From: Desulfobacca sp.
GTDB taxonomy: Bacteria > Desulfobacterota > Desulfobaccia > Desulfobaccales > Desulfobaccaceae
Assembly: GCA_020725545.1 (NCBI GenBank)
Contig: DYEV01000019.1
Location: 62,001 to 126,000 of the forward strand
DNA length: 64,000 nucleotides
Reading direction: 5' to 3'
In this document: positions 8,503 to 14,543 of the stretch, piece after piece
Numbering within the stretch: position 1 is the first letter of the stretch
How the letters are laid out: each line of letters starts with the position of its first letter
Translations under genes and position numbers: made by a program
Notes under the pieces: model-generated
Seen by the model: the letters and a program-made list of their open reading frames with translations, nothing else
Told to the model about the DNA's origin: nothing
Database searches by the model: none

Positions 8503-10797
8503 ATGAGTCCCGATAAACAATTTTACCATCTGGCCCTGGTAGGCGCAGGCCGACATGGTATGGCAATCATGGAGGCTTTGATACCCTCGCGGTGGGAAGA
8601 TCAGCCCCTGCGGCTGGTGGGCGTTGCTGATATTGATCTCCAGGCCCCGGGCATTCTCTACGCCCGTCGTTATAATATCCCGGTTTTTCAAGACCTGGCA
8701 GACTTGGTAAGGTTGCCCAACATCGATATCGTGGTAAATGCCACCGGGGTCCCAGAGGTCTCGGACCGCTTACAGGCCCTCTGTTCACTCGAGATGCCTA
8801 TCTTGAATTGTGATCGAACGGTGCCATGGGAAGATTTCTGGGACTCGGTCTCTAAAAGCCTGCTGTTTACCGATAAAGTGGAAGTCATAAAGATCGGCAT
8901 CATCGGCGGCGGTAAGGCCTGTCAGGACGTGTTGGCCCAGGCCCTGAGAAGCAACAGCAGCCGGCGCCGGATGCAGATCATTGGCGTGGCTGATCCCGAC
9001 CCCGGGGCACCGGGCATAGTCATGGCCAATAATGTGGGAATACCAACTTTTAGGGATTGTCTGCCTATTCTCGAGGCGAACCCTGACCTTATCTTGGAAC
9101 TCACCGGGAATGCCACTGTCCGGGAACTGCTCCGCCAGAGAAAACCAGAGCGCAGCCAAGTCATTGATCATATCCAATCCCGACTGTTATGGGAACTGTT
9201 TAAAAAAGAAGAAGATCGCCTGCGCTTCCGAGTGGAGAGCGAGATTAAGTTGGCCGATCAGCGCAACCGTTTTCAGCGCATCTTTGACCACCTGCCAGAC
9301 CCGGTCCTGGTCCTTAACGAGGACTATATTGTCGAAGAGGTAAATCAAACTTTCCTGAACCGTTTCAATAAGACCTTAGATGAAGTGATCGGGCAACCCT
9401 GTTACCGGATTTTTCATCAATTTGACGAACCCTGTGACCGGCGCGGTCTGACCTGTCCATTACCCCAGGTTGTTCGGGAGTGTCAGACCCAAAGTACTCT
9501 CCAGCGCCTTACCCACGACAATGGCTGTTCCCTCTTTCATGAAATAACCATGTCAGCCCTCTGTCCTCCCGAAGGGCGACGACGGAAGCGGGTCATCGAG
9601 GTCATCAAAGATGTTACGGCTAAGATGCAGTTGGAAGAGGCCTTGCAACGCTCAGAGGAATGGACTCGCCGCCTGCTGAAGGAAGCCATTGCCGGGAAAA
9701 ATTTTCTCGAGACCATAATCAATGGCATTGACGATCAGATGATGGTCATTGATCTGGACTATCACATTGTTGAAGTAAACCGAGCCGTTCTGGAAATGGT
9801 GGGGATGCGCAAGGAAGATGTGGTGGGCAAACACTGTTACGAAGTATCCCATCACCTACAGGAACCCTGCTCCAGCCCTGATCATCCCTGCCCCCTAAAG
9901 GATGCGGTTGCCAGCGGCAAGCCCGCCTCTACAACGCATGTTCATTTTGCCAAAGACGGCCGGGAGCATTATATCCATGTCGTCTGCCATCCCATCTTTG
10001 ATGAAAAAGGTCAGGTAGTTCGGGTCATCGATCTCTCTCGGGACATCACCAAGGAGGTCGTCGACCGGACGCGTATGCTGCATGATGATAAAATGACCTC
10101 TTTGGGGAGACTGTCGGCCAGCGTCGTCCATGAGATCAACAATCCTTTAACCGGTATCTTAAATTTCATCAAACTCATGCAGAGGATGCTCAATAAGGGG
10201 CAGCCCAGCGAGGCGGACGTGGCCAACATGAAAACATATCTGGAAATGGTCTATGGCGAAACCTCCCGGGTGAGCAAGACTGTTTCCAACCTGTTGGCCT
10301 TCTCCCGGAAGACCAAACCCGAATTCACCGTAGTTGATTTGCATCAACTGATTGAGGAGACTTTGGCCCTGACGGAATATCAGATGCGGCTGCAGGGTAT
10401 CAGTGTCAAACGCCAATTCGCCGACAAACTCCCGCCATTGAGTGCCGATCCGGGCCAGATGAAGCAGGCCTTCCTCAATCTTTTCCTGAATGCCCAGGAC
10501 GCCATGCCTCAGGGAGGCACCCTGACCGTAGAGACCAAGAGTTATTATAACCAGGCGGTCATCATTCGGGTCACTGACACCGGTGTGGGGATCCCCAAAG
10601 AAAGTTTTTCCCAGATCTTTGAACCGTTTTTTTCCACGAAGAAAAAGGGGGGGGTTGGCTTGGGCTTGTCGGTGGTTTATGGTATTATCCGGGATCATAA
10701 AGGCCTGATCAAGGTCGACAGCGTCGTTGGGCAGGGGACCACCTTTACCATCCGTCTGCCTGCCATGAAAATGGGGGGAGAGCGTGCTGCCGCATAA
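8503..10797 (+). CDS. Soluble sensor histidine kinase with duplicated Rossmann-like input, two PAS domains
   Basis: A 764-residue cytoplasmic kinase with no transmembrane segment. Residues 8-115 and 128-230 are two copies of a Rossmann-like domain; both carry the phrase GVAD followed by APGI. The first has a canonical GAGRHG loop (14-19), the second GGGKAC (135-140). Two PAS domains follow (about 255-375 and 400-520), each with a Cys-containing insert of the type CYRIFHQFDEPC. Then come HisKA (SASVVHEINNPL, phospho-acceptor His) and HATPase_c (NLFLNAQDAM, DTGVGIP, GVGLGLSVVYGI). The start has GGAG upstream. It overlaps the following NtrC-type regulator by 14 bases, so they form a two-component pair. 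The input domain suggests sensing a dinucleotide or related metabolite; that is inference. Confidence 0.92.
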   Translation: MSPDKQFYHLALVGAGRHGMAIMEALIPSRWEDQPLRLVGVADIDLQAPGILYARRYNIPVFQDLADLVRLPNIDIVVNATGVPEVSDRLQALCSLEMPILNCDRTVPWEDFWDSVSKSLLFTDKVEVIKIGIIGGGKACQDVLAQALRSNSSRRRMQIIGVADPDPGAPGIVMANNVGIPTFRDCLPILEANPDLILELTGNATVRELLRQRKPERSQVIDHIQSRLLWELFKKEEDRLRFRVESEIKLADQRNRFQRIFDHLPDPVLVLNEDYIVEEVNQTFLNRFNKTLDEVIGQPCYRIFHQFDEPCDRRGLTCPLPQVVRECQTQSTLQRLTHDNGCSLFHEITMSALCPPEGRRRKRVIEVIKDVTAKMQLEEALQRSEEWTRRLLKEAIAGKNFLETIINGIDDQMMVIDLDYHIVEVNRAVLEMVGMRKEDVVGKHCYEVSHHLQEPCSSPDHPCPLKDAVASGKPASTTHVHFAKDGREHYIHVVCHPIFDEKGQVVRVIDLSRDITKEVVDRTRMLHDDKMTSLGRLSASVVHEINNPLTGILNFIKLMQRMLNKGQPSEADVANMKTYLEMVYGETSRVSKTVSNLLAFSRKTKPEFTVVDLHQLIEETLALTEYQMRLQGISVKRQFADKLPPLSADPGQMKQAFLNLFLNAQDAMPQGGTLTVETKSYYNQAVIIRVTDTGVGIPKESFSQIFEPFFSTKKKGGVGLGLSVVYGIIRDHKGLIKVDSVVGQGTTFTIRLPAMKMGGERAAA

Positions 10798-12133
10798 AAA
10801 GATCAGAATTCTGGTGGTGGACGACGAACCAAGCATCCGCGAGTCCCTGAGTGGTTGGCTCCGGCAGGACGGGTTTGAGGTAGATACCGCGGCAGACGGC
10901 GTCGCGGCTCTGGCCATGACCAAAGAAAATCACTATGACATTATGCTCATCGACGTGAAAATGCCGGAAATGGACGGTCTTACCCTTCTTAAGAAACTGA
11001 AGGAGACAGAACCTGAGGCGGCGGTGGTGATGATGACGGCCCATGGCGCCATCCAAGACGCAGTCGATGCCATGCGCTTAGGGGCCTATGATTACCTCCT
11101 GAAACCCTTTGATCTGGAAGAGTTGAGTCTGACCGTCGACAAGCTGGTACGGCTGCAAACCCTGGCCATGGAAAATCTGATCCTGAAAGACCGGATGGCC
11201 ACCATGACCCGGTTTGAGAATCTGATAGGACAGTCCCCCCCCATGCTGGCCTTGTTCGAGGCCATTGTGGACGTGGCCCAAACGGACGCCACCGTGCTGA
11301 TCACCGGCGAAACGGGCACCGGCAAGGAATTGGTGGCCCGGGCCATCCATGCCCAGAGTCCCCGATGCTACGGCCCTTTTATCGCCATCAACTGCGGTGC
11401 CTTTACCGAACATCTGTTGGAGAGCGAGCTTTTTGGCCACGAAAAGGGCGCCTTTACTGACGCCAAATTTGCCAAAAAAGGCCGGCTGGAGATGGCCGAC
11501 GCCGGCACCCTGTTCCTGGATGAAATCGGCGATATCTCCATGAAGATGCAGATTGACCTGCTTCGGGTGTTGGAAACCCACGAATTCAGCCGGGTGGGCG
11601 GTACAGTCACCCTGCACAGTGATTTTCGGGTAATCGCCGCCACCAACCGGGACCTGAAAGAGGCCATAGCCCAGAAGACCTTCCGACAGGATCTCTACTA
11701 CCGCTTGAACGTCGTCCACTTGCATGTCCCGCCGCTGCGGGAGCGGGTCGAAGATATCCCTCTTTTGGCGCACCACTTCTTGCGGCGGTTCGCCACCGAG
11801 ACGAATAAGAAAATCGACTCCATCCATCCCGATGCTTTGGAGGCCTTGAAACGATATGGCTGGCCGGGAAATGTCCGGGAACTGGAAAACGCCATCGAAC
11901 GGGCCGTAGTGGTGCAGAAAGGCCGGCAGATTAAAGTCGATGACCTACCCTTCATTACCCAACCGGGCCAGGAACCGGCAGCCGCCAAATTGACGCTGGA
12001 AGAAATGGAGCGCCAGCATATCGCCCGCATCCTGGCCGCCCAGGGGGGCAATATCTCCACTACGGCCAAGATCCTGGGCATCAACCGCACCACCCTCTAC
12101 CACAAAATCAAAAAATACGGGCTTAGTCCGTGA
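10784..12133 (+). CDS. NtrC-type sigma-54-dependent response regulator
   Basis: The 449 residues form three domains: a receiver with VVDDE and phospho-acceptor Asp57 in MLIDVKMPEMDG; an AAA+ sigma-54 interaction domain with Walker A GETGTGKE, a sigma-54 contact loop reading GAFTDA instead of GAFTGA, and LFLDEIGD; and a Fis-type helix-turn-helix at the end (ISTTAKILGINRTTLYHKI). GTG start at 10784 lies within the 3' end of the kinase gene, after GGGGGGAG. It is the cognate partner of that kinase. Its target promoters should carry -24/-12 elements; none was found clearly in this window. Confidence 0.93.
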   Translation: MLPHKKIRILVVDDEPSIRESLSGWLRQDGFEVDTAADGVAALAMTKENHYDIMLIDVKMPEMDGLTLLKKLKETEPEAAVVMMTAHGAIQDAVDAMRLGAYDYLLKPFDLEELSLTVDKLVRLQTLAMENLILKDRMATMTRFENLIGQSPPMLALFEAIVDVAQTDATVLITGETGTGKELVARAIHAQSPRCYGPFIAINCGAFTEHLLESELFGHEKGAFTDAKFAKKGRLEMADAGTLFLDEIGDISMKMQIDLLRVLETHEFSRVGGTVTLHSDFRVIAATNRDLKEAIAQKTFRQDLYYRLNVVHLHVPPLRERVEDIPLLAHHFLRRFATETNKKIDSIHPDALEALKRYGWPGNVRELENAIERAVVVQKGRQIKVDDLPFITQPGQEPAAAKLTLEEMERQHIARILAAQGGNISTTAKILGINRTTLYHKIKKYGLSP

Positions 12134-12185: not shown

Positions 12186-12824
12186 ATGTCACAGCGGGCA
12201 TTTTTAGGACTGGTGGCTCTCGGTCCGGTGGACCCGGAGATCCTGCGGCGGTTGCGGATCGCCTTGACGAAGTTTTTCGGTCTGCGGGCCAAGGTCTTGC
12301 GACCGCAGCCGTTGCCCGAGCAGACCCGGCATATTGTCCGGCAGCAATATCATTCCACCCAACTCCTGGAATATCTGCTGGCCACCAATACCTCCGGCGC
12401 GTTGCGCGTCCTGGGGGTGACTGCCGTTGACCTCTATATCCCCATCCTCACCTTTGTCTTTGGCGAAGCTCAACTCAACGGCCAAGCGGCGGTTATTTCG
12501 TTGTATCGGCCCCGGGGTGATGCCGATGGTACCAGTCCACCTCAGGCCGTAGTCTTACGGCGCCTCTTAAAGCTGGGCATCCATGAGTTGGGACACACCT
12601 TTGGCTTGGGGCACTGCCGGGAGGAGGGCTGTCTGATGGGGTTCGCGCCGACTTTAGAAAAACTTGACCATAAAAACCTGGCGTTTTGTAAATATTGTCA
12701 GGTCCTTCTGGCTGACTTCTTCCTAGAGCGTCACATCTCCCCCCATTTCAAGAAGTATGAAGGAATTCTTTTACCAGACGCTGCCATCCCAGCTCGGGAA
12801 AGTGCCCGTAAACGTCGTCGATAA
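12186..12824 (+). CDS. Archaemetzincin-type zinc metalloprotease
   Basis: The 212-residue protein carries the complete archaemetzincin signature: HELGHTFGLGHC (H133, E134, H137, H143 and C144), then C149 in CLMG, and the C-terminal pair C168-x2-C171. His133, 137 and 143 bind the catalytic zinc and the four cysteines bind a structural zinc. No signal peptide is present, so it should act in the cytoplasm, probably as an aminopeptidase; biological substrates of the family are poorly known. The ATG at 12186 follows AGGG. Its 3' end overlaps the convergent H-like gene by 77 bases. Confidence 0.92.
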   Translation: MSQRAFLGLVALGPVDPEILRRLRIALTKFFGLRAKVLRPQPLPEQTRHIVRQQYHSTQLLEYLLATNTSGALRVLGVTAVDLYIPILTFVFGEAQLNGQAAVISLYRPRGDADGTSPPQAVVLRRLLKLGIHELGHTFGLGHCREEGCLMGFAPTLEKLDHKNLAFCKYCQVLLADFFLERHISPHFKKYEGILLPDAAIPARESARKRRR

Positions 12825-13650
12825 TAGCCCCGCCGGAGGGCAGGGTGATGCCGGCCGAGGACTCGAGCATTCCCAGAAGTTTATGAGCTTCGTTTTCAAT
12901 CCAGGCCACGTTCCGTTGGCCATAGAGCATATGCTCCAGATCCGGTTTCAGGTTTGTGGGAGAGACCACCACAAGCCAGCCTTCCCCGTAGGGGTCATCA
13001 TGGGCCAAGGCGGGGTTCTGGCGGACCTTAGGATTGACCGCCTCGATAATGCCGTCAACCGGCGCCAGGACCGCGGCCCGGTTATCGCCCCGGGATAAGT
13101 TAAGGGCGGAGGTATCGCGGCGCCAGGCCTGCCCCAGCTCCGGCAGCCAAACCGCGTCGGCCGGACCTAAAACCTTCTGGGAAAAATCGTCCAAACCGAT
13201 GCGCACCTGGCCGCCGGTCTCCAATTGTACCCAGGTATGCCCCCGGTGGAGATAACTGCTGGTGGGAACGCGAAAGCCAAAAACTTCGGCAAGGCGCGGC
13301 AGTTCGGGGGTGAGAAACAGCTCCGTCTGCTCTGCCAGAAGTTGGTCAAAAGAACATCGTTGACAGACGCTCTTCGTGCCGCAATAGCGGGGCGGGAGCC
13401 GACGTTGAGCCTTTTGATCCACGCCGCCGCGCTGCGGTATTTGCTCCTGCCCAGGGATGACCATGCTCTCTTTTCTCCTGGGTCCGGTGCCGGCCCGTTG
13501 CAGGGCTAGGTTGCGCCTGGCCGCCTCGGTCAAGGCCCGGTCAAACTCGCAGGTGACACAATCATAATTATGATTGCAGATCTTATAGTCGATGACGCCC
13601 GCTTCCATCCAGACGCAGAAAGGCGCGGGTTTCGAGGTATGCTCAGCCAT
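12748..13650 (-). CDS. Glycine-cleavage-H-like protein with duplicated Cys motif, no lipoyl lysine
   Basis: A 300-residue protein. The N-terminal 105 residues hold two copies of Cx5CxxCxFD (C25/C31/C34 and C90/C96/C99). The central part matches the GcvH barrel (HRGHTWVQLETGGQVRIGLDDF, LAPVDGIIEAVN, DPYGEGWLVVV), followed by a 70-residue C-terminal region ending IIDDVYGHFPELGWQRLV. At the site of the GcvH lipoyl lysine this protein has Asp, so it cannot be lipoylated there. The ATG at 13650 follows AAGGAGG. No gcvT or gcvP is nearby. The Cys motifs could bind zinc or an Fe-S cluster. The function is unknown and glycine cleavage is unlikely. Confidence 0.85.
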   Translation of the reverse strand: MAEHTSKPAPFCVWMEAGVIDYKICNHNYDCVTCEFDRALTEAARRNLALQRAGTGPRRKESMVIPGQEQIPQRGGVDQKAQRRLPPRYCGTKSVCQRCSFDQLLAEQTELFLTPELPRLAEVFGFRVPTSSYLHRGHTWVQLETGGQVRIGLDDFSQKVLGPADAVWLPELGQAWRRDTSALNLSRGDNRAAVLAPVDGIIEAVNPKVRQNPALAHDDPYGEGWLVVVSPTNLKPDLEHMLYGQRNVAWIENEAHKLLGMLESSAGITLPSGGAIIDDVYGHFPELGWQRLVKEFLHTS

Positions 13651-13725
13651 GGTCGTAGGCCTCCTTTCCTGTTAAATTTTGCTCCGAGAACGTCAGGAAG
13701 CCGATGGCCCCTGCCGACGCCGGGC

Positions 13726-14367
13726 TCAGGAGCGCTTTTTCCACAGCCGACTTAAATCCTGCAAGAGAAATTCCTGTACCAGTCGCCGCCAGGCCAGGGC
13801 CGGAAAATGACCATAGACATCGTCAATAATGGCACCGCCATCAGGGAGCGTCACCCCGACATCGGCTTCCAGCATGGCCAAAAGACGGTGCGCCTCCATA
13901 TCCATCCAGTTCACCGTGGCATCGCCAAAGTGCAGATTGGGGAGATTATATTTTAAGTTGATGGGACGCAGGCGATAGAGCCAGCCCTCACCATAGGGGT
14001 CCTGATTAATAAGACGGGGCTGGCGCTGAACTTGCAAATTAATCTCTTCGATAAGGCCGTCCACTGGCGCCAAAAATTTCGCCCGCCGGCCGCCCCGTAT
14101 CAAGGCCAGACAGACATGGTTCTGAAAATAGACGCCGCCAGGTTCTGGCAGCTCCACCTCATCGGCCGGGCCGAACACTTTCTGGGCAAAGTCGTCGATG
14201 CCGACCCTGACCTGATCATTGTCTGCAATTCTGACCCACGTATGCCCCCGATGGATATAATACGTATCAATGGGGACCTGAAACCCGAATACCTCTACGA
14301 ACCGTGGCGGGGGCACCGGGACGGCGGTCTCACCGGTGTCGATCGGTCGATGATTTTCCTTGCCCAT
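13726..14367 (-). CDS. Second glycine-cleavage-H-like protein, no lipoyl lysine
   Basis: A 213-residue paralogue of the next gene, sharing the H-type barrel (HRGHTWVRIADNDQVRVGIDDF, LAPVDGLIEEIN, DPYGEGWLYRL) and the same C-terminal extension (GGAIIDDVYGHFPALAWRRLV), but without the N-terminal Cys-rich region. The lipoyl lysine position is Gly. The start at 14367 has AAGGAGG nine bases upstream; the frame to 14415 adds residues without a ribosome site. The two genes are 75 bases apart on the same strand and look like a tandem duplication with divergence. Role unknown. Confidence 0.85.
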   Translation of the reverse strand: MGKENHRPIDTGETAVPVPPPRFVEVFGFQVPIDTYYIHRGHTWVRIADNDQVRVGIDDFAQKVFGPADEVELPEPGGVYFQNHVCLALIRGGRRAKFLAPVDGLIEEINLQVQRQPRLINQDPYGEGWLYRLRPINLKYNLPNLHFGDATVNWMDMEAHRLLAMLEADVGVTLPDGGAIIDDVYGHFPALAWRRLVQEFLLQDLSRLWKKRS

Positions 14368-14543
14368 GATCCCTGCCTCCTTTACAATGCTGATGAGAGG
14401 TTCCCAAAACGCCATCTTTTCAGCAGTATTTTATGCAAGGATTGGGCCAGGTCCATTTCTCAGATTATCCCCTGGAAAATTTTGGTTTTTTGCCGATGGC
14501 TGCGAAACGCCCGGCAACAGCTTTTGTGGCATATTTCAACAAA

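Follow-up and report, generated by a model that had tools for sequence, protein, structure and literature searches.

Tandem GcvH-like proteins without a lipoyl lysine and the association of their relatives with Hdr-type gene clusters

H-proteins are lipoyl carriers. Two adjacent genes in a 64,000-nucleotide stretch of DNA from Desulfobacca sp. (hereafter, the window) encode H-protein-like polypeptides, designated w1 and w2, that keep the barrel of this fold but carry no lysine at the position where lipoate is attached. We propose the name GcvHL for the clade holding both proteins, which is present in anaerobic Desulfobacterota and in a few other phyla. Based on gene fusions and gene neighborhoods, we consider it reasonably probable that GcvHL proteins serve as non-lipoylated docking or redox-partner subunits of Hdr complexes (HdrA/B/C and HdrA-MvhD-MetFV) and of NrfD/Fe-S electron-transfer complexes. 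The retention of the fold, the loss of the cofactor, and the ties to Hdr, MetFV, and NrfD genes suggest that the energy-conserving complexes of sulfate reducers and related anaerobes include an unrecognized subunit, which would have its own regulatory circuit.

H-protein barrels and their lipoyl sites

The genes for w1 (positions 13726..14367, minus strand; 213 amino acids) and w2 (12748..13650, minus strand; 300 amino acids) are separated by 75 bp on the same strand. The w1 reading frame is open to position 14415, but the ATG at 14367 has a good Shine-Dalgarno sequence and is probably the true start, and thus the coordinates 12748-14367 assigned to the pair in an earlier note on this DNA are correct. 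GCV_H is the sole Pfam domain matched by w1 and w2 (E values of 4e-20 and 3e-19, respectively), and in w2 the barrel spans residues 128-242 (12925..13269). AlphaFold2 modeled w1 with confidence as an H-protein barrel (mean pLDDT of 84.8). The best PDB match to this barrel by Foldseek is 1onl, with a TM-score of 0.90 on the target and 34% identity, and a fold search with the full-length model returned nothing but H-protein barrels among matches with E <= 0.001. Furthermore, both proteins can be aligned to the GcvH of Thermus with no gap near the attachment hairpin. The claim in the earlier note that both proteins keep the GcvH barrel is therefore well founded.

This same alignment, which had been proposed as a check, places no lysine at the modification site of either protein. 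The residue in the lipoyl-lysine column is a glycine in w1 (G109 in the long open reading frame, or G93 from the likely start; codon 14089-14091, minus strand) and an aspartate in w2 (D189; codon 13084-13086, minus strand), just as the earlier note had read from the letters. Each protein also carries a C-terminal extension, present as NWMDMEAHRLL...DGGAIIDDVYGHFP..W..LVQEFL in w1 (13765..13911, minus strand) and as AWIENEAHKLL...GGAIIDDVYGHFP..W..LVKEFL in w2 (12760..12906, minus strand). This shared extension, likewise pointed out beforehand, is real and is conserved across the phylum, with a model confidence in w1 that is low to middling. At its N terminus, w2 has a cysteine module (C12-x12-C25-x5-C31-x2-C34-x-FD; 13540..13617, minus strand), followed by a degenerate second motif (C90-x5-C96-x2-C99-x-FD; 13345..13383, minus strand) from which the first cysteine of the module is absent.

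A role for w1 and w2 in glycine cleavage can be ruled out because none of the 29 genomes of the order encodes GcvP, and the genome that includes the window has no GcvT. The observation that no gcvT or gcvP gene lies nearby thus extends well beyond the window. This 2.94-Mb genome encodes four additional GcvH-like genes, and a second tandem GcvHL pair is located on contig C29.

The absence of the attachment lysine is typical of the family as a whole. Among 83 members, the lipoyl-site residue is glycine in 51, lysine in six, and another residue in 26, whereas 59 of 61 GcvH proteins from outside the family have lysine at this position. Lipoyl synthase scores above the cut-off in only 10 of the 29 genomes of the order, and a second match of the BPL/LplA type appears together with it. 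Several member-rich genomes lack both the synthase and a ligase, and lipA is absent from the family-rich genomes G007, G008, G009, G013, G014, G016, G022, G027, and G028. The earlier assertion that these proteins cannot be lipoylated is upheld by the missing site lysine, by the prevalence of glycine in the family, and by the abundance of members in genomes that have neither lipA nor a lipoyl ligase.

Within the order, only five lysine-bearing GcvH proteins outside the family were found, and all are LbpA-like (loci L184, L185, L186, L187, and L190). Two of these loci, which were examined in full, include lipA, lplA, and lpdA along with arsenic-type or redox genes. Specifically, the clusters at L184:1905-10785 and L185:788-9445 each combine the lysine-bearing GcvH with lipA, lplA, lpdA, and an OsmC-like gene, and the L184 cluster also has ArsR-, ACR3-permease-, and ArsC-like genes. 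From this gene content, a lipoate-dependent arsenic system is possible. In genomes G025 and G026, a single contig carries both lipA and the lysine-bearing GcvH gene, and no lipA above the cut-off was found in G019.

The GcvHL family and its regulatory setting

Members of the GcvHL family are recognized by a non-lysine lipoyl site together with a C-terminal DGG module, both of which are present in w1 and w2. The module has the consensus W..E...RLL.M....G.TL.DGG...DD.YG..P.LGW..LV.EFL and was found in 60 of the 247 genomes sampled from the phylum. Proteins of the w2 type additionally carry one or two N-terminal cysteine modules (C-x12-C-x5-C-x2-C-x-FD), which are nearly exclusive to this family. 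In a tree built on a short alignment, in which many forks are open, 80 family members form one group apart from other GcvH proteins (support of 86), and a trio at locus L160 comprises the only proteins placed in another GcvH lineage.

Several related sequences were noted in the course of this survey. Rubrerythrin-like proteins at L144:4679-5188 and L145:2070-2615 have a module-like stretch (VAWIEEESLRRLGMMEPKVGATMHSGG) between helices, as if this stretch were a portable docking element. A 258-amino acid protein at L290 (G058:C1 821500-821757) has two cysteine modules and no GcvH domain, and its gene adjoins those of a response regulator and a histidine kinase. Finally, a second GcvH subfamily (L090:9670-10275 and L167-L197) is also without the lipoyl lysine across the whole order, and the site is in most cases an asparagine within the motif NGRRELxAP. 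In the genome that includes the window, this subfamily adjoins indolepyruvate oxidoreductase-like genes, and it scores above one of the NCBIfam GcvH cut-offs.

On the opposite strand, the window pair is accompanied by three genes of a regulatory character. An archaemetzincin-type protease (Peptidase M54) with a HELGHTFGLGHCREEGCLM...CKYC motif is encoded at 12186..12824 (plus strand), convergent with w2, such that the 3′ ends of the two genes overlap by 77 bp (12748-12824). An identical 77-bp convergent overlap recurs at L126, L128, and L150. The gene at 10784..12133 (plus strand) codes for an NtrC-type response regulator composed of a receiver, a sigma-54 activator domain, and HTH_8, which is the presumed activator of the w1-w2 operon. 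The third gene (8503..10797, plus strand) codes for a histidine kinase with PAS domains and two N-terminal Rossmann (GFO_IDH_MocA-like) domains, an unusual sensor that possibly reads the NAD(P) state. A sigma-54-type (-24/-12) promoter, CTGGCCCAATCCTTGCA, is located at 14434..14450 (minus strand), 67-83 bp upstream of the w1 start, and this is the single match to YTGGCMC-N5-TTGCW in the 64-kb window.

This arrangement of kinase, sigma-54 response regulator, M54 protease, and sigma-54 promoter is characteristic of the family. It had escaped the earlier note, as had the cysteine module of w2 and the four additional GcvH-like genes. In family-bearing genomes, 20 of the 31 M54 genes lie less than 2 kb from a family member, compared to an expectation of 0.11, and none was found near any other GcvH gene. 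We then examined 35 fresh loci picked by the C-terminal module alone, along with 43 GcvH loci outside the family as controls. M54 is near 30 of the 35 family loci and none of the 43 controls, although part of this contrast may reflect lineage since most of the control loci belong to other phyla. A histidine kinase and a response regulator are near 27 of the 35. The regions preceding family operons score higher for sigma-54 promoters than those preceding other genes (p~1e-16, with a replicate value of p~2e-9), but these p-values are too small because related loci were treated as independent, and the contrast with the control loci is the firmer evidence. The survey of genome neighborhoods that the earlier note had called for thus reveals a conserved kinase/regulator/M54/sigma-54 setting, as well as Hdr and NrfD links in relatives, and we infer that GcvHL production is inducible from a sigma-54 promoter.

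Hdr and NrfD links and competing explanations

Gene fusions tie the family to Hdr subunits. GcvHL is fused to HdrC at L140 and L150. At L091, its fusion partner is an HdrA2/MvhD-like chain that also carries a molybdopterin-binding-like domain, and MetF, MetV, and HdrA are encoded next to this fusion; four relatives of this locus (L135, L137, L139, and L147) carry a similar HdrA/MvhD-like fusion. Moreover, the gene order GcvHL-HdrC-HdrB-HdrA adjoins the kinase, regulator, and M54 genes at L256, L281, L282, L286, and L287. Other family loci bring together NrfD and a TAT-type Fe-S protein, or DUF1641 and an SQR-like flavoprotein. An HdrA gene lies no more than 5 kb away from 14 of the 44 family loci in the first set and from 12 of the 35 in the second, or only about one third, and so the Hdr link is strong where present but is not universal. 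In the genome that includes the window, no Hdr genes adjoin either tandem pair (the window and C29), and only a fusion on contig C25 adjoins Hdr. Since the window pair has no Hdr neighbor, an association of w1 and w2 with an Hdr/NrfD-type complex is inferred from fusions and neighborhoods in their relatives.

A separate GcvH lineage at L160:6232-10716 includes receiver-GcvH and receiver-GcvH-HdrC proteins beside HdrA and HdrB, and these architectures arose independently of GcvHL. This locus also holds a receiver-STAS-like protein.

If GcvHL proteins are indeed subunits of such complexes, the kinase would sense a redox or metabolic signal, for which its Rossmann domains suggest NAD(P), and the response regulator would fire the sigma-54 promoter to yield GcvHL. 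The protein would then dock onto an Hdr/NrfD-type complex via its barrel face and C-terminal module, while M54 might turn over or process a component. The cysteine module may bind a metal or an Fe-S cluster, or may provide thiols in lipoate's stead. We also considered a version in which lipoate has been replaced outright, with the mobile barrel kept, the swinging arm lost, and the cysteine module acting as a thiol, persulfide, or Fe-S redox center, which would make GcvHL a substrate or carrier of HdrB-type reductases. This version seems rather doubtful to us. The earlier note had held a new scaffold role to be likely, and such a role is plausible in that it is compatible with the Hdr/MetFV/NrfD fusions, the operons, and the regulatory setting, but scaffold, redox carrier, and signaling adaptor are inseparable by sequence.

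The main rival to a docking or redox-partner function is that GcvHL acts chiefly within the kinase/regulator/M54 circuit, as a ligand-binding or cysteine-sensing co-regulator or as an M54 substrate, and that the Hdr link is secondary. Histidine kinases, response regulators, and M54 are the commonest neighbors, and the fact that these are found more often than HdrA could favor signaling. The receiver-GcvH fusions at L160, the placement of the window and C29 pairs apart from redox genes, and the GcvH-less cysteine-module protein beside a kinase and regulator at L290 are likewise in line with this idea. We nonetheless grant it only a modest chance, since the HdrC and HdrA/MvhD fusions and the co-directional GcvHL-HdrC-HdrB-HdrA operons put the domain inside redox enzymes, and sigma-54 promoters make GcvHL a downstream target of the regulator. 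Another proposal would make GcvHL a C1-unit carrier linked to MetF/MetV (the Wood-Ljungdahl methyl branch), with cysteine in place of lipoate. The MetF/MetV neighbors and the HdrA/MvhD-GcvHL fusion are suggestive in this regard, as is the oxidation of acetate via the acetyl-CoA pathway by Desulfobacca acetoxidans (PMC3156406). However, MetF is in the vicinity of just four of the 44 family loci in the first set and four of the 35 in the second, and the HdrA/MvhD-GcvHL fusion has no cysteine module, which makes a C1 carrier unlikely.

It is likewise improbable that GcvHL is a carrier after all, bearing lipoate or another group on a different residue or binding it non-covalently. The genome that includes the window does have lipA and an LplA-type ligase, and lysines or arginines are located close to the site, such as the lysine at position +4 of w1 and the lysine or arginine at +2 in many members. 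However, the site residue is variable and mostly glycine, and lipoylation elsewhere on GcvHL was rejected because lipoate genes are absent from many member genomes. Furthermore, contig C34 encodes a separate E2-like protein with a lipoyl-type domain (a 444-amino acid frame, tentatively identified from its domain and length) that could be the user of the lipoate genes in this genome. The tandem duplication, the loss of the attachment site, and the absence of a glycine cleavage system from the order might also be taken as signs of decaying gcvH paralogs with no function, but we find this hardly credible. Between w1 and its L123 relative, dN/dS is ~0.27. Another pair of w1-type genes gives 0.06, and closely related w2-type pairs give ~0.1; synonymous change between w2 and its relatives at L126 and L128 is near saturation. 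GcvHL genes are therefore under purifying selection, with dN/dS of about 0.06-0.27 where dS is measurable. Given these low values, and the conservation of the added modules, promoters, and neighbors in many families across the phylum, w1 and w2 are not pseudogenes, and the conservation data refute decay.

Comparison with known systems

Genuine GcvH (PF01597, TIGR00527, PRK01202) shares with w1 and w2 the barrel fold and core motifs such as DPYGEGW. Unlike GcvH, however, the two proteins lack the lipoyl lysine of the ESVK-type hairpin and a P or T protein partner, and they carry the extra C-terminal module and, in w2, the cysteine module. Their scores against the NCBIfam GcvH models (62-72 bits) are below the cut-offs of 116-117. 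NF045810 ('GcvH-related protein', desulf) and TIGR03077 ('not_gcvH') are also named GcvH-like families outside glycine cleavage, but membership of w1 and w2 in either was rejected on the basis of scores of 24-36 bits (cut-off of 150) and 31-35 bits (cut-off of 144), respectively. No description of the GcvHL family was found in the literature searched, and its existence explains many would-be 'gcvH' annotations in genomes that have neither glycine cleavage nor lipoate synthesis.

Among known proteins, the closest parallel is LbpA (sLbpA), which binds lipoate in the sHdr pathway of sulfur oxidation and has a strictly conserved, lipoylated lysine (PMC6067878). Like GcvHL, LbpA is GcvH-like, is tied to Hdr-like complexes, sometimes occurs in two copies, and has cysteines that GcvH lacks (PMC6067878). 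LbpA is encoded in or beside hdr-like genes, which is also true of many GcvHL members but not of the window pair. GcvHL differs in its C-terminal module and its sigma-54/M54 setting, and membership of w1 and w2 in LbpA was rejected because the conserved lysine is missing. The cysteines differ as well: LbpA has two conserved residues near its N and C termini, whereas w1 has no such pair and w2-type proteins have an N-terminal four-cysteine module. A further parallel is the Moorella-type MetFV-HdrABC-MvhD methylene-tetrahydrofolate reductase complex (PMC6085437), which is brought to mind by the MetF, MetV, and HdrA genes adjoining the L091 fusion, with the difference that the MvhD/HdrA-like chain at L091 is fused to GcvHL and to a molybdopterin-dinucleotide-binding-like domain.
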